Source: a virus. From it: a DNA stretch of 34,188 nucleotides. Made by a program: the position numbers and the translations under genes. The stretch is from positions 1 to 34,188 of the IMG/VR virus record IMGVR_UViG_3300017613_000460. One strand, written 5' to 3'. Positions 11,646-28,973 of the stretch are shown one piece after another; position 1 is the stretch's first letter; every line of letters begins with the position of its first letter. The notes under the pieces are model-generated. The model worked only from the letters and a program-made list of their open reading frames with translations. It made no database searches and had not been told where the DNA came from.

Positions 11646-11679
11646 AAAGCCAGACTGCTACAGGTAGCAGTCTGGCTTT
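11646..11679. terminator. Bidirectional terminator at the convergence point, built on palindrome copy 9
   Basis: A perfect 16-bp stem surrounds the core element (11653-11672). On the plus strand it is followed by five T after the stem, and on the minus strand by TTTATTTTA, so it can end transcripts from both blocks. It lies between the last plus-strand gene and the last minus-strand gene, where two-way termination is needed. The outer pairs AAAGCCA/TGGCTTT are specific to this copy. Confidence 0.9.
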
Positions 11680-11702: not shown

Positions 11703-12035
11703 TTAGGGTGGTGATGTAGTTGCCAACGTAGTGGGTGCCAACGTAGTGGGTGGCGTGGTAGTTAACAACGTAGTAGGTGGTGTCGTAGTTAACAACGTAG
11801 TGGGTGGCGATGTCGTAGGTATGACAAAGTCACGTTCAAACAACTGTCGAGCCATTCGATGGATTAAGTTTTCAAGTCCTCGCTCGTCAGTAAAATCTAC
11901 ACCGTCGTCGAATACAATGGCAACATGAGCCGCATCAACAGTATTGGCAACTGTTTCTGTTCCTGCCAAATCTTCGATTTCGAAATTTCTTTTATTCTGG
12001 TCAATAGTTCCAGAAATAATTATTGATCCTCCCAT
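11703..12035 (-). CDS. Small protein with Thr/Pro-rich mucin-like tail
   Basis: The 110-residue product has a strong ribosome site (GAAAGGAGAACAG). Residues 1-73 form an apparently folded, acidic domain of unknown family, starting MGGSIIISGTIDQNK. Residues 74-110 consist almost only of Thr, Pro, Leu, Ala and Ser, in units such as PPTTLLTTT and APTTLATT with a 9-residue period. No signal peptide is present. The gene is the last of the late operon and follows the glycosyltransferase by 15 nt. Thr/Pro repeats of this kind are classic acceptors for mucin-type O-glycosylation, so the tail may be the enzyme's substrate. It could also be an unmodified stalk or linker. A related repeat lies in the tail nozzle. 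Confidence 0.75.
   Translation of the reverse strand: MGGSIIISGTIDQNKRNFEIEDLAGTETVANTVDAAHVAIVFDDGVDFTDERGLENLIHRMARQLFERDFVIPTTSPPTTLLTTTPPTTLLTTTPPTTLAPTTLATTSPP
11706..11816 (-). repeat. Imperfect 27-bp tandem repeats coding the Thr/Pro tail
   Basis: Units related to GTTAACAACGTAGTAGGTGG (plus strand, first 20 of 27 nt, at 11761 and 11788) repeat about three to four times. One unit is 30 rather than 27 nt long, and all keep the reading frame. Unit number is likely to vary by slippage or recombination. Confidence 0.75.
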
Positions 12036-12050
12036 TTCTGTTCTCCTTTC

Positions 12051-12995
12051 TTAAGTTTCCCAAGGTTCCGAATTTTCCAAAAATTCAACTTCGTTGATTT
12101 TGTCTTTTTCTAATCGCCTCCTTTCATCATTAGCGAGTTTCTTAGCAAGTTCTAAATGTTTAAGAATATTAACTTTATTCCTATCTTCCATAAATGCAAT
12201 AAAATCTTTCCTTTCAAACATATAGTCTGCTCCGAGTGCTCGTAAAGAAACTAAAAATCCGAGCCACGGAAAGTGTGTACCAGAGTGAGAATACACTCTG
12301 TACTTATGGAATTTTCTTGCAATTGCAGGAAAGGGACCAAGATGTATAACAGGTCGAGCAGGAACCGCCCAATTTTCATAGCCCAATACCCAAGATTTTA
12401 GTCCTAAGTGCATATCCCCGCCACCCCAGGCAAGGCGGTGTTGAGATAAAGCACCGTACCCTTGAAGTTCATTTAAGAACCAGTCTCGTTTACAAATCCA
12501 AGGCATACCTTTCCATGATATTTTTCTTTCATGAGTATACAAACCGCCCCAAGTTCCAAAGACCTTAGCCATGTTATGACGAGATCTATCCTCATGGTGG
12601 GTAAACCAGTTAACTGGGGCATGAGCAAAACCTATCTTCCGATGCTCATTTCTTTCCATAAATTCAACCAAGTCAGCAATAACTCTATGACCAAATAAGC
12701 AATGCGAATCCACGCATACTATATATTTACTGCTTGATTCTTTTATAGCTGTTTCTCTTGCCGTAAAAAGGCAAGGATAGTCTTGTCGAAACATTTTGAT
12801 CTTTGGTTTAGGGCCAGTCATATAGCCTGTAGGTAAGATAGCGTTTCTACAATCCCAAATCTCTTTATCCGAGTTATCAACAATAACCACTTCCCCATCA
12901 TTTGAAAGTGGAACAAATTCTTCAATGGCCGATCTTACAGTAACTGTAAGCATAGCTGTATCATTTCGGTTTGCTATAATAACTGATACTCTCAT
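12051..12995 (-). CDS. GT2 glycosyltransferase resembling polypeptide GalNAc-transferases
   Basis: This 314-residue GT-A fold enzyme begins MRVSVIIANRND (nucleotide-sugar binding strand) with VIVDNSD at 37-43. The metal-binding motif is DSH at 96-98 in YIVCVDSHC. In family GT27 (polypeptide GalNAc-transferases) the equivalent is LDSHCE, where Asp and His bind manganese. WGGGDMHLGLKSWVLGY starting at 190 matches the WGGEN-x-E-x-SFRxWxCGG Gal/GalNAc-transferase motif in position and pattern, and PVIHLGPF (216-222) parallels the SRVGHVFR segment. There is no signal peptide or membrane anchor and no lectin domain, so it acts in the cytoplasm. It precedes the Thr/Pro-repeat protein in the operon. 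Substrates could be that protein, the nozzle repeat, or a host glycan. The donor sugar is unknown. Confidence 0.82.
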   Translation of the reverse strand: MRVSVIIANRNDTAMLTVTVRSAIEEFVPLSNDGEVVIVDNSDKEIWDCRNAILPTGYMTGPKPKIKMFRQDYPCLFTARETAIKESSSKYIVCVDSHCLFGHRVIADLVEFMERNEHRKIGFAHAPVNWFTHHEDRSRHNMAKVFGTWGGLYTHERKISWKGMPWICKRDWFLNELQGYGALSQHRLAWGGGDMHLGLKSWVLGYENWAVPARPVIHLGPFPAIARKFHKYRVYSHSGTHFPWLGFLVSLRALGADYMFERKDFIAFMEDRNKVNILKHLELAKKLANDERRRLEKDKINEVEFLENSEPWET

Positions 12996-13207
12996 TTAGC
13001 TTCTTCTTTCGGCGGAAGGGGAGACTGTTTTAAGAACATTGCGGCTGCTACAATAGCACTGACAAGAGCTACCATCCCAAGTTTTCCAATCCCCTCCTCA
13101 AAATTGAAAGACGTTGGTTCAACAATCATGACAGTTACACTATTCGCCGCTCCGCCAATGACCGCACTTATCAGTCCTCTAATCCATTGAGTCGTTTTCG
13201 GTTTCAT
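12992..13207 (-). CDS. Holin-like membrane protein (71 aa)
   Basis: Two hydrophobic segments (about residues 8-30, LISAVIGGAANSVTVMIV, and 43-60, LGMVALVSAIVAAAMFL) flank a short acidic loop, and a Lys-rich tail ends the protein. This is the size and layout of small phage holins, and I recall similar unannotated phage proteins beginning TTQWIRGL. The start overlaps the upstream gene by 29 nt, and the stop overlaps the glycosyltransferase start (ATGA type). It belongs to a compact three-gene membrane or lysis cassette. No endolysin gene was recognised nearby, so the lysis role is inferred. Confidence 0.65.
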   Translation of the reverse strand: MKPKTTQWIRGLISAVIGGAANSVTVMIVEPTSFNFEEGIGKLGMVALVSAIVAAAMFLKQSPLPPKEEAK

Positions 13208-13468: not shown

Positions 13469-13684
13469 TTATTTTAGATAACCTCGCATAAAAATTATTG
13501 CCAGCCCCACAACGACGGGGATCGCTCCGCCAACCACGCCCCAAATACCCGCCTTTACTTTAAGAATAGCAATCTCAACTCTTACTTTAGCGCACTCTGT
13601 ATTAAGTGCTGTAGTACAATGATCCAGTCGTTCAAGTTCTTTAAGAACGTGTTTAGACCATTCAGTCCAACCATTAGTTCCCAT
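13469..13684 (-). CDS. Small coiled-coil protein with C-terminal membrane anchor
   Basis: The 71-residue product begins with an amphipathic, coiled-coil-like stretch (WTEWSKHVLKELERLDHC, then VRVEIAILKVKAGIWG) and ends in one membrane segment (VVGGAIPVVVGLAIIFM) and a short basic tail. This layout resembles XhlA-type haemolysin or holin-associated proteins. Its start overlaps the cupin stop as TAATG. Together with the following two genes it forms the likely lysis cassette. Confidence 0.65.
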   Translation of the reverse strand: MGTNGWTEWSKHVLKELERLDHCTTALNTECAKVRVEIAILKVKAGIWGVVGGAIPVVVGLAIIFMRGYLK

Positions 13685-14217
13685 TACGAATCTACCTCCG
13701 GTGTACGATAAGGGAACGGCGCGCCATCTGGAAATCCTTCCGCTGAGGGTACTGTTATTAATATCAAATGAGAATCCACAGGGAAGTAAACAGAGTGCAG
13801 TGTTCTTGGAGATAAGTAAAAAATCCCTGGGGCTTTTATAATGTTAGTACCATTTTTCTTTTCTATCCTGTTACGACAATCAGTTGGCCTAAACTCAACG
13901 TGCATTTCTCCATCATACACAATAAAATATTCCCAAGCCTCGTGATAATGCGGAGGCCATTGTGTGTCACCTTTAACAAAAGAACGTGCTACAGCTACTT
14001 TGTCTACCTTGTACAACCCAATTAGAACTCCCTCACCCTTTTCAAGTGTTGTCCTTAAAACGGAAGGGGATTCGAAAAAAGCGTGATCTCCGTAGTCCTG
14101 TAGTTCTGCGGTTAACTTTCGTATTGTATCAAGATTTGAGTTACCCATATCCAACACGCAGCATTCCTTTCCTTTTGCTATGGTTTGTGCAAGGTAGGTT
14201 GTTAGTCTACCTGCCAT
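13684..14217 (-). CDS. Cupin-fold metal-binding protein
   Basis: This 177-residue protein contains the cupin motif H90-x-H92-x3-E96 in PPHYHEAWEYFIVYDGE and the second-motif H141 in SPRTLHSVYFPVDSH, the usual four metal ligands. The rest looks like a single small beta-barrel. Cupins in sugar-nucleotide pathways act as epimerases or isomerases, while others are oxygenases or plain binding proteins, and the sequence does not decide. Position in the late block, two to three genes from the glycosyltransferase, allows a role in sugar metabolism. The ribosome site AAAGGAGGATAAAA is strong. Confidence 0.75.
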   Translation of the reverse strand: MAGRLTTYLAQTIAKGKECCVLDMGNSNLDTIRKLTAELQDYGDHAFFESPSVLRTTLEKGEGVLIGLYKVDKVAVARSFVKGDTQWPPHYHEAWEYFIVYDGEMHVEFRPTDCRNRIEKKNGTNIIKAPGIFYLSPRTLHSVYFPVDSHLILITVPSAEGFPDGAPFPYRTPEVDS

Positions 14218-14237: not shown

Positions 14238-15185
14238 TTATAGCCAGGGTTTAAAGTCAAACTGTGCTAAAAAAGTGCTACTGCCAGGGTGTACAGCCAT
14301 CACACCCAATTGACCTGAACCATCTGCCATAATTTCGATTTCTCCAGGTCCTAATAATGTCCAATCCCCATCAACAGCTGGCTCACTTGTAGCATAGTAG
14401 GTTTTAAAATTACTCCCTTCTCGTTCCATCCGTACCCAAGCAGGATTCGTAGTGGTATTCTTAGCAGTTTCAGATAATGTAGATCTTTCCCTACTTATAT
14501 CTGTATCTCGCCGTTGAAAACTTTGTTCTATTTCATTATCGTAACGTGTTAAGATTAATACACTATCTCCATTACTATGCTGATAAATAATACCTGCTTG
14601 CCGGTACTGTTCAGTAATTTTATCAGTTGTCACTTTAGCGTAAAAATCGAAGTTTCCTGTTATTGTACTATGTTGCCAAGTAGGTGAAAACGAACCACCC
14701 CAAACATCACCCCCACCACTCTGTAAGGTAATAAAGGCAGGGTTAGGATTAGCACCCACATGAAGATTGGTGGGTGGTAAGTATTTTGACGGTGGAGGTA
14801 GTTCTTGAAAGAACTCAAAGGGTTGTGGAACATAAAGTGTATTTGTGCTATCACTCCAAGTTTTTTCGCTTTCAGTAGTAAGTGGAGAATCCTCTTTGAA
14901 AGCAGAAACACCGACATGATAAAAGATCCCCTGTGCCGGTAAACCCACAACCCAGGTTAGATCTTTAGTTTCACCCAAGAGCAGTATATTAGGTTCTCCG
15001 ATTTTATTTTTTAAATAAATCCTGTATTTAAGAGTATCAGGATCAATAGCATTTCCGTTAATATCTTCGGTAGGTGCGTCCCAATAAACCGGCGTGTTAT
15101 TGGGGACTGTCACCGTTTCCGCCATTGCCGGGACTGCCATTAACAACGCCAGTAGTACTGCTAAGACCAATAAGCTTTTTTTCAT
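14238..15185 (-). CDS. Secreted protein with C-terminal lectin-like (DUF1349-type) domain
   Basis: The ATG at 15185 follows AAAAGGAGGAACAAG; a longer open frame to 15263 would bury the export signal behind 26 charged residues. Residues 1-22 are a Sec signal peptide (MKKSLLVLAVLLALLMAVPAMA) with an Ala-x-Ala cleavage site. A fibronectin type III-like unit (PVYWDAPTEDINGN to VGVSAF) follows, then a Pro-rich link, and a beta-sandwich with GNFDFYAKVT, QAGIIYQHSNGDSVLIL and WVRMEREGSNFKTYY, resembling DUF1349/concanavalin-like glycan-binding domains. It is 315 residues long. It is expected in the periplasm or outside the cell, which is unusual for a gene in a phage late operon. Its 5' end overlaps the HTH gene by 89 nt. 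Confidence 0.78.
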   Translation of the reverse strand: MKKSLLVLAVLLALLMAVPAMAETVTVPNNTPVYWDAPTEDINGNAIDPDTLKYRIYLKNKIGEPNILLLGETKDLTWVVGLPAQGIFYHVGVSAFKEDSPLTTESEKTWSDSTNTLYVPQPFEFFQELPPPSKYLPPTNLHVGANPNPAFITLQSGGGDVWGGSFSPTWQHSTITGNFDFYAKVTTDKITEQYRQAGIIYQHSNGDSVLILTRYDNEIEQSFQRRDTDISRERSTLSETAKNTTTNPAWVRMEREGSNFKTYYATSEPAVDGDWTLLGPGEIEIMADGSGQLGVMAVHPGSSTFLAQFDFKPWL

Positions 15186-15504
15186 CTTGTTCCTCCTTTT
15201 CTTTTTTAATTCTTCTTTTTCTTTCATTAATAACCCTTGATATATAAGTTCTTTGCATTCCAAGTGCTTCTGCAGTTACTATTTGATTACCGAAATGACT
15301 ATATATTGCAGCAATGCAATTTTGTTTAAAAGCCTTCAAGCCTATCCTGAGGATTTCCTGAACTATAGGCCGGTAATCTAACTTCTTTCCATTGAGAGGT
15401 TCTTTGTCATCGTCACGATCAATATCTACAAATTGACGCATATTCCCATTCCCATCAACATGGATTTCTTGTCTAAATTTAAAACCTTCATTAGTATTTT
15501 TCAT
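15097..15504 (-). CDS. Fis-like helix-turn-helix DNA-binding protein
   Basis: Residues 50-97 (EILRIGLKAFKQNCIAAIYS, then HFGNQIVTAEALGMQRTYIS and RVINERKRRI) resemble the Fis or NtrC C-terminal helix-turn-helix, a helical dimer and HTH unit that ends in a basic helix. The tail is Gly/Ser/Asn-rich and apparently disordered; it is read in another frame over the signal peptide code of the next gene. The start overlaps the lipoprotein stop as TAATG. It is the only clear small DNA-binding regulator in the window. It is a candidate late regulator and a second candidate binder of the dispersed palindromes, although Fis-type sites are usually degenerate. Confidence 0.7.
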   Translation of the reverse strand: MKNTNEGFKFRQEIHVDGNGNMRQFVDIDRDDDKEPLNGKKLDYRPIVQEILRIGLKAFKQNCIAAIYSHFGNQIVTAEALGMQRTYISRVINERKRRIKKEKEEQDEKKLIGLSSTTGVVNGSPGNGGNGDSPQ

Positions 15505-15914
15505 TAGTATTTTACTTTCCTTTTCCAGTCACTTTCGATAGCCCAATCAAATTGTTGCTCCATGTAGCTCCTCACACTTTTGTACCCAAGAGGTTCAAAC
15601 CAATTATGTCTCTGGCAAACGTAAACATAATCTTCAGCTACACATAGAGCCTTCCATTCACCCTCAATCTGTGCTTCAGCTTGAGCGTGCCAAGCTTTTG
15701 CCTTGTAAGAAGGGCCACTGATAATTCTAACCGGATACTCTTCCCCCATCACAATAGCTGCGTAAACAGCACTATGCCTACACTCTCCCCGAATAGACTG
15801 ATTAGCACACCCACTGAACAACATCATAAAAATTACAGTTCCAAAAAACAATACGATGAGTAATAAAACCTTTATTAACATCTCCGCTTTTTTACCTTCA
15901 ATAACTACTTTCAT
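15504..15914 (-). CDS. Putative lipoprotein with transglutaminase-like cysteine peptidase fold
   Basis: The start follows AAAAGGAGGAGGAATT. A hydrophobic segment (residues 13-33) ends in LFSGC with C36, a lipobox-like site for lipid attachment in a Gram-negative envelope. The remainder, GECRHSAVYAAIVMGEEYPV with C45 and KAWHAQAEAQIEGEWKAL with H76, follows the transglutaminase-like pattern: Cys in a helix, G-x-PVR strand, then His before a Trp-containing strand. A third residue could be E94 or D95. Phage lipoproteins often act in superinfection exclusion, but a cysteine-peptidase-like one is not a type I recognise. Lytic activity against cell wall is possible but unsupported. Confidence 0.65.
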   Translation of the reverse strand: MKVVIEGKKAEMLIKVLLLIVLFFGTVIFMMLFSGCANQSIRGECRHSAVYAAIVMGEEYPVRIISGPSYKAKAWHAQAEAQIEGEWKALCVAEDYVYVCQRHNWFEPLGYKSVRSYMEQQFDWAIESDWKRKVKY

Positions 15915-15931: not shown

Positions 15932-15951
15932 GATTGCTACCTGTAGCAATC
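15932..15951. repeat. Dispersed palindrome, copy 10
   Basis: The perfect form GATTGCTACCTGTAGCAATC fills the 36-nt gap between the large secreted protein and the lipoprotein ribosome site. On the coding strand its first G is the last base of the TAG stop, the same arrangement as at 34108-34127. Confidence 0.88.
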
Positions 15952-18900
15952 TATGGTGATCCACCGATGGCGTCAATCTCGGTAGCGGTTAAAACTTTCG
16001 GAACTATTAACATATCTGAAAAATAAGTTGGTCCTCCAACAAGATAACCAAATTGCATTTTGGCCGCAGCGGCCGCATAGTCACCGTCGAAGTCATCAGG
16101 CGTTCCCCACGTGAACCCACTTCCGTCATCATAACCGACATTCATAGTATTCGTTCCGGTTTCCCATTTGACACCCATCTTAATCCAACTATTAGCGGCC
16201 CAATTTGGATCAATCTCGGCCCTTGTAGATGGGCCTGAACAAAAAGAAGCAAGCACATCATTAGTCCCTCTATACCACAGAATATTAGAATGTGAGTTAG
16301 CCATTGACATTACAGACAAATAGGGCCATCCTGAGGCGGCTAAAGTTGCTTGAGAATAAGTCGGATACAGCCAAATAATAAGAGTTCCAGGTTGCCCTGA
16401 TACGGGGGTGACTAAAGGAAAAGTCAAACCCGTTGCTCCACCACTACTTTCCTCGGTCAACCTCCCCTGGCCCATCTTCTTGACTGCTATATCGTCAACC
16501 GTCCCGTTCCAGGAGTCGTCAAACACAACTTTTAGGACGTCGTTGTCAGTCGCTGTGACGTAGTCGTAATACGTTCCGTCAGCAGAAATGGTTTCTCCAA
16601 CGGTACTCCCGTACTCCATATGATAAGACCCGCCATCCGTGTCCTCGTCGGCGGTATGGGTGATCTGATAAATGTAACCGGCAACGGGCTTTTCGTAGAT
16701 GGAGAGGTTTTCGATTGTACCTGACCAATTGACACCAGCAGATCCGGTATTGTATCCAACAACCCCGATATGATCGTGGGTGTGATCCATCGTAAGTGTT
16801 TCTGATATTGTTTCAACCAGTGTAGTTCGGGCAGCATCGGAGTAAATGTCAACATACATGGTACCAGGAGAACCGCCGACACACCTAATAGTTAAATAAT
16901 AGGTAGTATTTGGTGTTAATTCGGCTGAGGAAGAAGGATTACTTAAAACACCATCGTCTATCTCATAGATAGCAATATCATTAGTCATCCAAATAAAAAC
17001 ACCATGATGTGTTGCCCCGCCTGCAACGATGTTTGCCAGATCGTCATCTTCGGAGCATATTGCCCATGGAGCTATCCCACCTGATCCGACTACGGCTGTG
17101 TATTTAGTATCTACATAATGAGTAAAATTAGATGTGGTATCAAAGTAATCTGCAGCACCCATGTCTCGCAACTTATGAATATCAATTGCTCTTGTCATAG
17201 TCGTAGCGGTAATAGTGTTACCATCTGTAACAACTAATGTGCCAGGAAAATCAGCAGCCTCCCAACACGGCTTGCTCCAGTCCATGTAGGACTGTTCAAC
17301 GGTTATAGTATCTGTCTGATCTCCAGTAACCGTTACGGTGTCTGCAGAGCCAGTATGCCCTACATAGTCACCTTCGTTCCAGTCATCAGGGGTGACTTCC
17401 TTTAAACTTAAGTTATCAAGCCAGCAACATTCTCCAACGGACAAATCGATAGTGTTAAGAGCCACACCGTTTGGCGTCCCTGATGCATCCCGACAGGTAA
17501 AGTAAAAAGTATATGTATCAAAGGTTGTACCAGTTACTGCTTGATATACAGTTCCACCTGAGCTGTCATAAAATCTTAAATTGAGAGTGTCTCCAACGCC
17601 CTTTTTAGCGTCCACTTGGAACCTATATCTCTTCCCAACAACCATGTCGGCTGACAAATCATCAGAGTCCGAAAAGTAAATAAACGCTCCTGATGCATTA
17701 TCAACATAGGTTATTTTTAATGAATTAGCATCATTAGAAATAGTGTTATTTGCTGATTTTGTCCATCCATAAGTCCCACTCGGAGCAGCCTCATCGTCTG
17801 CCACGGCAGCATCCGTTAACCCACTTGTTGAAAGTATCGTTGTCGCACTGGCAGCTGCCTCTGTAGTGATAATATACTCCCCACCGCCAGAAAAAACCAA
17901 TTTGGTACCAACTACAAGTTTAAAGGGGATAGCATCAACCGTCATGCTATTGGTTCCTATGATGTAGCCAGCCCCGTTGTTAATTGTAACATTGCTGCTC
18001 GTAAATACAGATGCAGCAGAATCCCATAGCTCATCCCCAAGCGTACTGTTAACAAAACCACCATCCACGACCTGGTCACCGCCAAGCACGACTCCATCGT
18101 TGTCAACGTAGGAGGAGGGGAACTTCTTGTTGTATTCAAGTTGGGCGCAGTCAACGATAACAGATCCCGTTTCGGTTCCATCACCTACGCTCGTTCCATT
18201 TGTACTGGCTGCAGGGAAAATAGCATATTGTACTTTTTCATTAGATCCGTCACTGTCGGCCCCAGAAACCCATACTCTCAACCAGTCTCCAACATCAATA
18301 CAGCCTGTAGACACCCCTGTTGCTTGTGTAACAGTGGCGTAGTTTGAAACAACTCCTGTATTCGTATTGATAAAGGACATTGCATAGTTAACTGTTCCAC
18401 CTTCATGAAAAGTGATCCCAAACAAAGGGAAGGTAGTTGCACCAGTTGTCTTTTTTATGTATATAGAACTACAGTAATAAACTCCATCGCCGACTGTGAC
18501 ATCTAAATGCTGTCTAATCCTATAATAATCACCAGAGTCAGAATCGGTATCTCTTATCGTGGTTGCCTTATTGGCTCCTCCATCAACCCCTGTAGCATTT
18601 TGGCTTGCCGTTCCCTCATCCTGTGAACTCCAATAAGTGGAACCACTATCTATATTTCTTGAATCCAACAGAAGATTCTCCCCCTGTGGTTCAATACGTA
18701 ACGCCCGTTTTCCCCCGACCCACTCATAAATCGGCTTGGTATCATCTGCTTCGAATTGCATCACCCCGTTATCTATATAGGAACGTGATGCGGCGCTGGT
18801 GTAGGTGAATGTTCCTTCATTGCTTTGACTACCCTTTGTTATTAAAGGATTTGTACTATTCGCAGCAAATTTCCATACTGCGCCTATACCTGCAGTATTA

Positions 18901-19001
18901 AGAGAATAGAAACCCGTTCCCCAGTATAGATCAAGAACTCCGGCTGAGACGCCTATCGTGAGTGTTAGTATTAATACTAAAGATAATAATATCTTTTTCA
19001 T
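15951..19001 (-). CDS. Large secreted multidomain carbohydrate-binding-like protein (1016 aa)
   Basis: Residues 1-20 (MKKILLSLVLILTLTIGVSA) form a clear Sec signal peptide. After it come jelly-roll and laminin-G-like parts. The first (about 107-305, opening ENLLLDSRNIDSGSTYW, then YYCSSIYIKKT and DWLRVWVSGA) is the glycan-binding module common in phage tail fibres. A second (WTKSANNTISNDANSLKITY to CCWLDNLSLKE) is CBM4/9-like. A middle concanavalin-like part and a C-terminal LamG-like part (GTLIIWLYPTYS, ANSWIKMGVKW) complete it. Content suggests a receptor-binding or fibre-type protein, but export would remove it from cytoplasmic virion assembly. It lies three genes after the T7-type fibre adaptor. 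It may be a soluble glycan binder, a surface decoy, or a fibre with a misjudged hydrophobic start. Confidence 0.8.
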   Translation of the reverse strand: MKKILLSLVLILTLTIGVSAGVLDLYWGTGFYSLNTAGIGAVWKFAANSTNPLITKGSQSNEGTFTYTSAASRSYIDNGVMQFEADDTKPIYEWVGGKRALRIEPQGENLLLDSRNIDSGSTYWSSQDEGTASQNATGVDGGANKATTIRDTDSDSGDYYRIRQHLDVTVGDGVYYCSSIYIKKTTGATTFPLFGITFHEGGTVNYAMSFINTNTGVVSNYATVTQATGVSTGCIDVGDWLRVWVSGADSDGSNEKVQYAIFPAASTNGTSVGDGTETGSVIVDCAQLEYNKKFPSSYVDNDGVVLGGDQVVDGGFVNSTLGDELWDSAASVFTSSNVTINNGAGYIIGTNSMTVDAIPFKLVVGTKLVFSGGGEYIITTEAAASATTILSTSGLTDAAVADDEAAPSGTYGWTKSANNTISNDANSLKITYVDNASGAFIYFSDSDDLSADMVVGKRYRFQVDAKKGVGDTLNLRFYDSSGGTVYQAVTGTTFDTYTFYFTCRDASGTPNGVALNTIDLSVGECCWLDNLSLKEVTPDDWNEGDYVGHTGSADTVTVTGDQTDTITVEQSYMDWSKPCWEAADFPGTLVVTDGNTITATTMTRAIDIHKLRDMGAADYFDTTSNFTHYVDTKYTAVVGSGGIAPWAICSEDDDLANIVAGGATHHGVFIWMTNDIAIYEIDDGVLSNPSSSAELTPNTTYYLTIRCVGGSPGTMYVDIYSDAARTTLVETISETLTMDHTHDHIGVVGYNTGSAGVNWSGTIENLSIYEKPVAGYIYQITHTADEDTDGGSYHMEYGSTVGETISADGTYYDYVTATDNDVLKVVFDDSWNGTVDDIAVKKMGQGRLTEESSGGATGLTFPLVTPVSGQPGTLIIWLYPTYSQATLAASGWPYLSVMSMANSHSNILWYRGTNDVLASFCSGPSTRAEIDPNWAANSWIKMGVKWETGTNTMNVGYDDGSGFTWGTPDDFDGDYAAAAAKMQFGYLVGGPTYFSDMLIVPKVLTATEIDAIGGSP

Positions 19002-26617: not shown

Positions 26618-27060
26618 TACAACCTCCTCATATAACTGTACTCTGCTAAAAAATAACCTTTACGTTTTAAGACAGGACTAAAATCAATTTCTGGTTTTAT
26701 ATTGATTATAAAATATTCTACTTTTCTTTTCTTTAATTCTTTTTCTGTAAAACTTATTAATTTTTGGCCGTGTCCTCTATAATCTTTTAAGAGATATATT
26801 ATATCATTTAAAGCGATTTTAACTGGATAGTGTATATGAGAATGTAAAAAATTAGAAGTGTAGCCCACTATTCGGTCGTAATAATTAGCCGTAATAACTA
26901 ACAAACCGCCATTATCGTGCATAACTTGGTAAACATCCCATTTAGGATCTAATACAGTTTCTTTAAAATGAGATACTTCTTGAAAATGATCAACTAACAT
27001 TGGTAGTAACTGAGTTTTAAATAAATAAATTGGGTCATTTTCTATTTTAAAAGTTATCAT
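26617..27060 (-). CDS. GNAT-family acetyltransferase
   Basis: The 147-residue protein has the GNAT core: VYQVMHDNGGLLVITAN strand pair, IIYLLKDYRGHGQKLISF with acetyl-CoA loop RGHGQK at 95-100 (R/Q-x-x-G-x-G/A), then EYFIINIKPEIDFSPVLKRK GYFLAEYSYMRRL (end given in two parts), which matches motif B. It is coupled to the nozzle gene (ATGA overlap) and to the gp14-like gene. GNAT genes between nozzle and ejection proteins occur in other short-tailed phages. Targets are unknown; virion proteins or host RNA polymerase factors are possibilities. Confidence 0.85.
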   Translation of the reverse strand: MITFKIENDPIYLFKTQLLPMLVDHFQEVSHFKETVLDPKWDVYQVMHDNGGLLVITANYYDRIVGYTSNFLHSHIHYPVKIALNDIIYLLKDYRGHGQKLISFTEKELKKRKVEYFIINIKPEIDFSPVLKRKGYFLAEYSYMRRL

Positions 27061-28973
27061 TTTACTCTAAACTCCGGCATTATAGATATAATTGTACAAG
27101 GAAAAGGTTTGTTGTGGACTACTGTTATCTGTCCGTCAACTACATACCCATCATCTAAATTAACTTCCTTAATCCCCGAAAAAAACTCCTCAGGATAGCT
27201 ATTTACGTCTAAAGGATCATACATAGTATCCAAAAGGAAAGTCATATCTTCGTCGTTAACAGTTAATTCTTGAGTATTGTATAAACGTATCTGAGCTTTA
27301 CTAATCCGTTTTATTTTTCCTATAGCAGTTCCTATAGGATTGCCTCCTTCTAACGGTATAGTTTTTAATGTAGCAGTATACCCCAAACCAACTAAAGCCT
27401 TGCTGACCTCATAATTTATATCAATTGCTCCACCAGATACAATACAGTCAGGATGACGATAACCCCTAATAAAAACCTGAACAGTTTCTCCCTCTAAATG
27501 TTCTAAACCTCTTAAAGTAGTTGTTGGTGGTGTAGTTGTAGGAGCTAAAGTTGTAGCAAGTGTTGTAGGAGCTAAAGTTGTAGCAAGTGTTGTAGGAGCT
27601 GGAGTTGTAGCAAGTGTTGTAGGAGCTGGAGTTGTTTCTGTATCCGCATAAGCCACTATTCCACTGTCAACATACCAAGCATCAGGAGTACTATCGTATT
27701 CATCTGTAGGCCATGCAAGACGTTCAATATAAACTACAGTATCACTACCTATCATACGTTGTACACTTATAAAAACCTCAGTATGCGGAGAATCTTCTAC
27801 CATACCCTCGACAATAGCAACACTGGTTATAACTGTATCATCAGCAACATTTGCTCCAAGTTCAAATACAAACCATCCAGTAATATTTGTTTCGGGTTCG
27901 TAACTAATTATTATAAGTACACCATCTTCTCTAAGAAACCATCCTAATGTATCTGGAGTATTACTATACCCCGAGGATATAACAGGACTTTCCCTAAATA
28001 AGTGTTCACTCATAATAGATAGGTCTTTTGATATTTTTTTATTTTTAGCAATAGAATAATTGATAGCTCGAAGTTTAGTAGAACCCCTCTGAACAAAACA
28101 AAGATCACTTCCTAAAAAGATAGGAGGTACTGCTTCAGAACCATAATTAGTGTTTCGTACAAATTTTATATTAGTTGGGCCTATTGCTAAATCTGGATCT
28201 TGACCTACCATCTCGTATTCATTGTAGTCTGTCCCAATCATTAGGGAGTTAGACTCTACAGCCAACCAACGAATATGATCTGCTCGATCTGAATCAATAG
28301 TGAAAGTAAAAGCATCCGTAGGATTAACACCTAAAGTAAAAGTGTAGTAATCATAAGAAGTAGCTCCAATAGCACTTGCCCAAATTTGTCCAGGTTGTTC
28401 AGGGCATCCTGTTAAGTATAATCGTTCCTGAAAAATAACACCAATCGAAGGATAGTTATTAGCTCCCCATTCTGTAGGTGCTCCGGTAAAAGTAATAGTG
28501 CCAAGAGTAAATGAATCAGCTCCAGTTCTTGCAAGAACATAAGGAACATAGTCGTTATGGAGAAGAATCATAACGGCCACACCGCTTGCAGCATCCCTGG
28601 TTGTGGCAATACCTAAGTCCTTAAGTTCTGCATGAGCGTAAGGTGAGACAGTTTCAACTGTCGCCCCACCTGAAGTTACTAACTGGTATGCTGAACCATA
28701 CTTCCAGTATCTAAATTGTATATTAGAACACTCAATTACTAAACTCATTCCTTCTTCTTGAGGCCATGCAATAAGTCGTATGCTGTCATTATCCGCAGCT
28801 GCAGCAAGATATTCAGTACCACCCCTTTTTATAGCTGCCCCATGTGATTTAGCAAAAAAGTTTCTTAGAGTCTCACAACCTTGAAGATACTGGTCGAGAT
28901 CAACTCTACCTTTAACATACGGGCTAAGTTCTCCGACTGAAAAAGTCGATAATATGGGTTCGAATTTTGGCAT
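27057..28973 (-). CDS. Tail tubular protein B-like nozzle with internal Thr/Ala/Pro repeat
   Basis: The opening (FSVGELSPYVKGRVDLDQYL, then LRNFFAKSHGAAIKRGGTEY) is typical of the tail nozzle family of short-tailed phages (T7 gp12 / stabilisation protein type). At 638 residues it is of normal size or slightly short. Residues about 445-490 hold a Thr/Ala/Pro repeat of 9-residue units (TLAPTTLAT type) placed between two folded parts, after WYVDSGIVAYADTETTPAP and before LRGLEHLEGETVQVFIRG. That is likely an exposed flexible loop on the tail. No signal peptide. It directly follows the tail tubular A gene (TAATG). The repeat resembles the tail of the Thr/Pro protein at 11703-12035. Confidence 0.88.
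   Translation of the reverse strand: MPKFEPILSTFSVGELSPYVKGRVDLDQYLQGCETLRNFFAKSHGAAIKRGGTEYLAAAADNDSIRLIAWPQEEGMSLVIECSNIQFRYWKYGSAYQLVTSGGATVETVSPYAHAELKDLGIATTRDAASGVAVMILLHNDYVPYVLARTGADSFTLGTITFTGAPTEWGANNYPSIGVIFQERLYLTGCPEQPGQIWASAIGATSYDYYTFTLGVNPTDAFTFTIDSDRADHIRWLAVESNSLMIGTDYNEYEMVGQDPDLAIGPTNIKFVRNTNYGSEAVPPIFLGSDLCFVQRGSTKLRAINYSIAKNKKISKDLSIMSEHLFRESPVISSGYSNTPDTLGWFLREDGVLIIISYEPETNITGWFVFELGANVADDTVITSVAIVEGMVEDSPHTEVFISVQRMIGSDTVVYIERLAWPTDEYDSTPDAWYVDSGIVAYADTETTPAPTTLATTPAPTTLATTLAPTTLATTLAPTTTPPTTTLRGLEHLEGETVQVFIRGYRHPDCIVSGGAIDINYEVSKALVGLGYTATLKTIPLEGGNPIGTAIGKIKRISKAQIRLYNTQELTVNDEDMTFLLDTMYDPLDVNSYPEEFFSGIKEVNLDDGYVVDGQITVVHNKPFPCTIISIMPEFRVK
27535..27634 (-). repeat. 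27-bp tandem repeat in the nozzle gene (3.6 copies)
   Basis: Three full units start at 27535, 27562 and 27589, with a partial one at 27616. The first two are identical, and the third differs by GG for AA in one codon. Each unit codes nine residues of the Thr/Ala/Pro repeat. Near-identity of units suggests recent duplication or frequent copy-number change. Confidence 0.9.

Follow-up and report, generated by a model that had tools for sequence, protein, structure and literature searches.

Mucin-type O-glycosylation of Thr/Pro tracts is regarded as an animal trait, and to our knowledge glycosylation of the virion has been described in only a few phage systems. In mycobacteriophages, according to Freeman 2023 (as cited in PMC12619734 and PMC10877033), phage-encoded glycosyltransferases decorate the capsid and tail-tube proteins with glycans at their C-termini. 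As far as these citing accounts go, the system described here shares with the mycobacteriophage one a phage-encoded glycosyltransferase, its virion glycosylation being predicted from the genes alone, and differs from it in both phages and hosts. A preliminary description of the present locus had taken glycosylation by a phage of its own protein to be new or barely described. On the same accounts, self-glycosylation of the virion is already published for mycobacteriophages, so that novelty would be confined to its mucin-type form. The open-licence literature yielded no link between the mycobacteriophage system and a GT27-like enzyme or mucin-like Thr/Pro repeats, and neither phage GalNAc-transferases nor mucin-like phage proteins were found to be reported in it.

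On the enzyme side, the closest described family is that of the polypeptide GalNAc-transferases (GALNT/PGANT, CAZy GT27). In GalNAc-T2, Mn is bound by Asp224, His226 and His359, and Trp331 acts as a gate, while Glu334, Arg362 and Lys363 are the peptide contacts (PMC4432651).

The DNA analysed here (the window) is a virus record of 34,188 bases that is Pelagibacter-phage-like; Pelagibacter podophages such as HTVC010P are the closest for its portal and nozzle proteins. The two reading frames from which the preliminary description started, a glycosyltransferase and a Thr/Pro protein separated by 15 nt in the same operon, lie at the positions it gave. The late operon ends with the glycosyltransferase gene followed by that of the 110-residue protein, which has a strong ribosome-binding site (Shine-Dalgarno-like AGGAG). 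The features of this end of the operon are:

11646 to 11679, no strand: perfect 16-bp hairpin with a T run, a likely terminator separating convergent transcription units
11703 to 12035, minus strand: small 110-residue protein and predicted acceptor; its gene starts 15 nt past the glycosyltransferase stop and closes the late operon
11706 to 11819, minus strand: mucin-like Thr/Pro tail of that protein (residues 73 to 110), with a 27-nt DNA period
12051 to 12995, minus strand: GT-A glycosyltransferase of 314 residues, GalNAc-transferase-like and predicted to be soluble (PF00535, AlphaFold2 model, PDB matches)
12992 to 13207, minus strand: small hydrophobic protein in the same transcription unit, its stop codon overlapping the start codon of the glycosyltransferase gene (ATGA)

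A cupin protein encoded a few genes upstream of the glycosyltransferase (13684 to 14217, minus strand) has a weak WbuC-like, LPS-related match. Three late proteins of the window, all on the minus strand, have hydrophobic, leader-like starts: one with a weak DUF1349 match (14238 to 15263), a fibre-like protein of 1016 residues (15951 to 19001) and a third at 15504 to 15914. One of the three has a lipoprotein-like box before a Cys.

We consider it likely, with a probability of roughly 0.7, that the enzyme O-glycosylates mucin-like Thr/Pro tracts of the phage's own virion proteins. In the proposed mechanism, the soluble, Mn-dependent enzyme would take a nucleotide sugar of the host in the host cytoplasm, the candidate donors being GalNAc, GlcNAc or a hexose, and during late gene expression would add O-linked sugars to Thr (and Ser) residues of disordered, mucin-like Thr/Pro tracts. 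The acceptors in the window would be the C-terminal tail of the 110-residue protein, which we infer to be placed in the virion, and a loop of the nozzle. Particles would end up with dense glycan brushes, which might help them to escape recognition by the host or by antibodies, to adhere or to resist proteases, or might simply add bulk. If this is true, bacterial viruses would have evolved mucin-like coats, the view of how phage surfaces meet hosts, mucus and antibodies would change, and a compact cytosolic enzyme would provide a simple tool, compatible with bacteria, for the glycosylation of Thr/Pro sequences.

The fold of the glycosyltransferase was computed with AlphaFold2, which gives a model with a pLDDT of 89 and a pTM of 0.89. 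The best 50 PDB matches of this model are all polypeptide GalNAc-transferases (E 1.2e-14 to 2e-11), a ranking that is not benchmarked against an ordinary GT2 enzyme, since the control phage GT2 (G083) was modelled at a pLDDT of 31. The alignments mostly span nearly the whole enzyme, at 20% identity and with a modest query TM score of about 0.6. The structural check proposed in the preliminary description had set GalNAc-transferases against LPS or teichoic-acid enzymes as the nearest folds, and all of these best 50 matches belong to the former. Among viral structures, the best matches are phage GT-A proteins (1e-10). At the sequence level, the general GT2 domain PF00535 is the sole Pfam match (1e-11), and a search with profile A1, built from 28 viral relatives of the enzyme, matches GalNAc-transferases, chondroitin synthase and TarP with weak E-values.

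The catalytic residues, likewise computed, are located in three motifs:

12702 to 12710, minus strand: DSH, residues 96 to 98, predicted Mn ligands equivalent to Asp224 and His226 of GalNAc-T2
12414 to 12428, minus strand: WGGGD, residues 190 to 194, with Trp190 equivalent to the gating Trp331
12327 to 12344, minus strand: H218-L-G-P-F-P, with His218 predicted to be the third Mn ligand, corresponding to His359 of GalNAc-T2

The segment WGGGDMHLGLKSW starts at residue 190 and is followed by His218. The DSH, the WGGGD segment and the His after it had all been pointed out before, and they are indeed present and invariant or nearly so in the 28 homologues, where D96, H98, W190, G191 to G193, D194 and H218 do not vary. 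The spacing between the Trp and the His is 28 in all family members that could be scored for both patterns, identical to that between W331 and H359 of GalNAc-T2, and HMMER aligns the phage WGGGD onto the WGGEN segment of PGANT9. With the GALNT/PGANT enzymes, its nearest solved structures, the phage enzyme has in common the GT-A fold, a metal site made of D-x-H and a distal His, a gating Trp in a WGG segment at the same distance from the His, and presumably Thr/Pro-rich acceptors.

Relative to these enzymes, however, the phage protein is short (314 residues), lacks a lectin domain and a membrane anchor, has WGGGD in place of WGGEN and HLGPFP in place of H-x-x-R-K, and is encoded by a phage and predicted to be cytosolic, with no Golgi. 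Its chain ends at residue 314 with no Pfam match to a ricin-type C-terminal lectin domain. The positions of Glu334, Arg362 and Lys363, taken as equivalent by spacing, are occupied in the phage family by Gly193, which is invariant, and by Pro221 and Phe222, which are nearly so; since these peptide-contact residues are replaced, acceptor binding must differ in the phage enzyme. Because these residues and the lectin domain are both missing, the earlier assignment to GT27 does not hold. The enzyme is GT27-like: on its model it is predicted to work like a GalNAc-transferase, yet it is not filed as a member of GT27.

Surface-modifying glycosyltransferases are common in phages, and a GT2-type enzyme might instead modify a surface glycan of the host (O-antigen, capsule or teichoic acid), the Thr/Pro tracts being plain flexible linkers. 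Consistent with this, the N-terminal, nucleotide-binding GT2 half of the enzyme has a weak match (19.8 bits) to the GtrB-like O-antigen conversion transferases of phrog_22739, the matches to TarP and chondroitin synthase are in the same direction, and a generic GT2 occurs in 18 of the 50 control phages. Compared with the GtrB-like proteins, however, the C-terminal half of the phage enzyme is unmatched, and their C-terminal transmembrane helices are absent from it: in a simple hydropathy scan, as distinct from a dedicated transmembrane predictor, the maximum over 19 residues (KD19) is 1.26, and there is no strong hydrophobic segment. Serotype-conversion neighbours were not recognised around it either; in the window the gene belongs to the terminal part of the late operon, and it lies just upstream of the terminase (TerL) gene in the clade described below. 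Chondroitin synthase and the GT7-like WGGED enzymes share with the phage enzyme the GT-A fold and the WGG-acid motif, with a profile sequence match of 9e-6, but they are not among the best 50 structural matches, and the phage enzyme has DSH where they have DxD. Taken with the GalNAc-transferases that make up those 50 matches and with the recurrence of Thr/Pro tails alongside the enzyme in unrelated phages, these features make modification of the host surface unlikely.

The predicted O-glycosylation of virion proteins has two candidate acceptors in the window. The 110-residue protein ends in PTTSPPTTLLTTTPPTTLLTTTPPTTLAPTTLATTSPP, and the preliminary description had reported a tail of 37 residues of Thr, Pro, Leu and Ala. 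The tail is there, with a length of 38 residues and a composition of 18 Thr, 10 Pro, 6 Leu, 2 Ala and also 2 Ser. For the N-terminal 72 residues, no family match and no homologue were found. A second tract, at which the preliminary description merely hinted, is confirmed in the nozzle as a Thr/Pro insertion of 41 residues:

27057 to 28973, minus strand: nozzle, homologue of tail tubular protein B (phrog_376, E 5e-130; tail tubular protein B of Pelagibacter phages)
27516 to 27638, minus strand: Thr/Pro/Ala/Leu insertion of 41 residues in the nozzle (residues 446 to 486), absent from 12 homologues, second predicted acceptor

The insertion contains 20 Thr and 8 Pro, and the candidate acceptor peptides include TTLAPTTLAPTT and TTSPPTTLLTTT. 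In both proteins the best 37-residue stretch has 18 Thr, while the maximum in 200 shuffled proteomes of the window is 13, so that the tail of the 110-residue protein is not due to chance. Since the Thr codons differ between the two tracts, their likeness lies at the protein level and does not reflect recent copying of DNA.

Among the 13 nozzles compared, the insertion is exclusive to the enzyme-carrying phage; the 12 homologues, whose phages have no detected enzyme, lack it at the same alignment position, and in some of them other inserts occupy the same loop. This comparison, like that of the portal, drew on cultured relatives of the window phage, and searches of viral contigs with the portal and nozzle for relatives of the window gave no match. 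One record with a podovirus nozzle gene, Limnohabitans phage DC33 (L360, PQ492659.1), has Inoviridae in its taxonomy line despite a length of 39 kb, which is probably a taxonomy error.

Relatives of the enzyme are encoded at 62 IMG/VR loci. The pattern method turned up none in 84,980 GTDB genomes, and a search of 50,697 phage records gave none either; by sequence search, the enzyme family is phage-only within these collections, which were covered by tblastn, HMM or pattern searches, many viral records being fragments. The 21 large records that were fetched form one syntenic, podovirus-like clade with genomes of about 50 kb (terminase phrog_38, portal, capsid phrog_1328). All 21 encode the enzyme, a core gene of the clade that mostly lies a short way upstream of the TerL gene; since the records were found through the enzyme, this count indicates its fixed place in the clade and not the absence of members without it. 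The enzyme family is the only gene family that the window phage and the clade have in common, and in the enzyme tree the window enzyme falls among those of the clade on a long branch, so the gene probably moved between unrelated phages.

In six clade genomes the enzyme gene is preceded by genes for an NAD-dependent sugar epimerase and a methyltransferase, and in one more by the epimerase gene alone. Most clade genomes also conserve a GDP-mannose-dehydratase/epimerase-like gene (family 26, for example L283:534-1724), which lies in the early region, at a distance from the enzyme gene. In three records the enzyme gene is directly adjoined by a divergent second paralogue that has DSH and WGG as well (G078:15620-16762, G080:6900-7826 and G085:1291-2349). 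Fusions of B12-binding, radical SAM and GT2 domains, assigned by a Pfam run on the L240 member, are encoded near the enzyme gene at L240:4046-6064, L273:4000-6885 and G089:18965-21844.

Viruses have many, diverse glycosyltransferases that modify DNA (Pyle 2024, as cited in PMC12619734). The occurrence of radical-SAM/GT2 fusions in some clade members would fit an enzyme whose acceptors are modified bases in the phage DNA. This is nevertheless very improbable, since it leaves the Thr/Pro tails unexplained and the window has no recognised base-modification gene. A TET/JBP oxygenase was found in none of 25 records (the window and 24 of the clade), a weak point, as the control genomes also gave none.

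In all 21 enzyme-carrying clade genomes, the major capsid gene is immediately preceded by that of a small protein with a conserved body, and in 20 of them this protein has a Thr/Pro/Ala C-terminal tail, for example STTAPPGTTVAPTTVPQ. These tails vary in length and are constant in composition; some genomes have only short tails with 5 to 8 Thr. The exception is G094, in which a Thr-rich reading frame of 827 residues adjoins the enzyme gene. Both the enzyme and the tailed protein are absent from five cultured phages with homologous capsids, of which one is 50% identical. The pairing of enzyme and Thr/Pro protein that the preliminary description reported in one phage thus recurs in an unrelated clade, so that it is found, by computation, in two unrelated lineages.

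The DNA encoding TTLAPTTLAPTT was also scanned for in all 2.9 million viral contigs, blind to the enzyme. Of the 27 records matched, 11 carry the enzyme and 7 more are fragments of the 50-kb clade that do not include the locus of the enzyme. The overlap expected by chance is about 0.0006 records, a figure that is not to be read as a literal P-value since shared ancestry explains much of the association. Within the clade the association reflects shared ancestry, which leaves only about two independent origins. The enzyme occurs in none of 50 collagen-repeat control phages. Presence of a generic GT2 was rejected as a marker of Thr tracts because PF00535 is found in 18 of these same controls, and so was a loose six-frame Thr/Pro criterion, since in the controls it responds to GPTG repeats of the collagen-like kind and to reads that are out of frame; the analysis therefore relied on the specific motif and on the capsid-adjacent family.

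The enzyme could also glycosylate virion proteins at other sites, with Thr/Pro tracts serving flexibility and co-occurring with it because both are common. Eight of the 21 clade members have no long tracts by the six-frame criterion, and tracts are present in phages in which the enzyme was not detected: HTVC010P has a Thr/Glu-rich one, and several records outside the clade that match the motif (G027 and G020, for example) have others, so the tracts alone are not proof. However, even in the clade members without long tracts the capsid-adjacent protein ends in a Thr/Pro tail, the phages with homologous capsids but no enzyme lack this protein entirely, and the nozzle insertion is limited to the enzyme-carrying phage among the 13 compared. 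Glycosylation at other sites is therefore distinctly unlikely.

Since a GalNAc-transferase-like enzyme accompanies Thr/Pro-tailed proteins of the virus particle in two unrelated phage groups, both groups probably coat their own particles with sugar, as judged from their genes. We infer from the same pairing that the reaction is O-glycosylation of protein and that the tailed proteins are its acceptors. The fuller version, phage-borne mucin-type O-glycosylation in which a GT27-like enzyme and hypervariable, mucin-like domains on capsid-adjacent, tail and fibre proteins would produce a true mucin-like glycan coat, seems about evenly poised. A protein in the scaffold position of some clade phages (family 1, for example in G089 and G079) has Ser/Thr-Pro-acid repeats such as TDAPGTESPGTETPSTEAPST and may be another modified tract.
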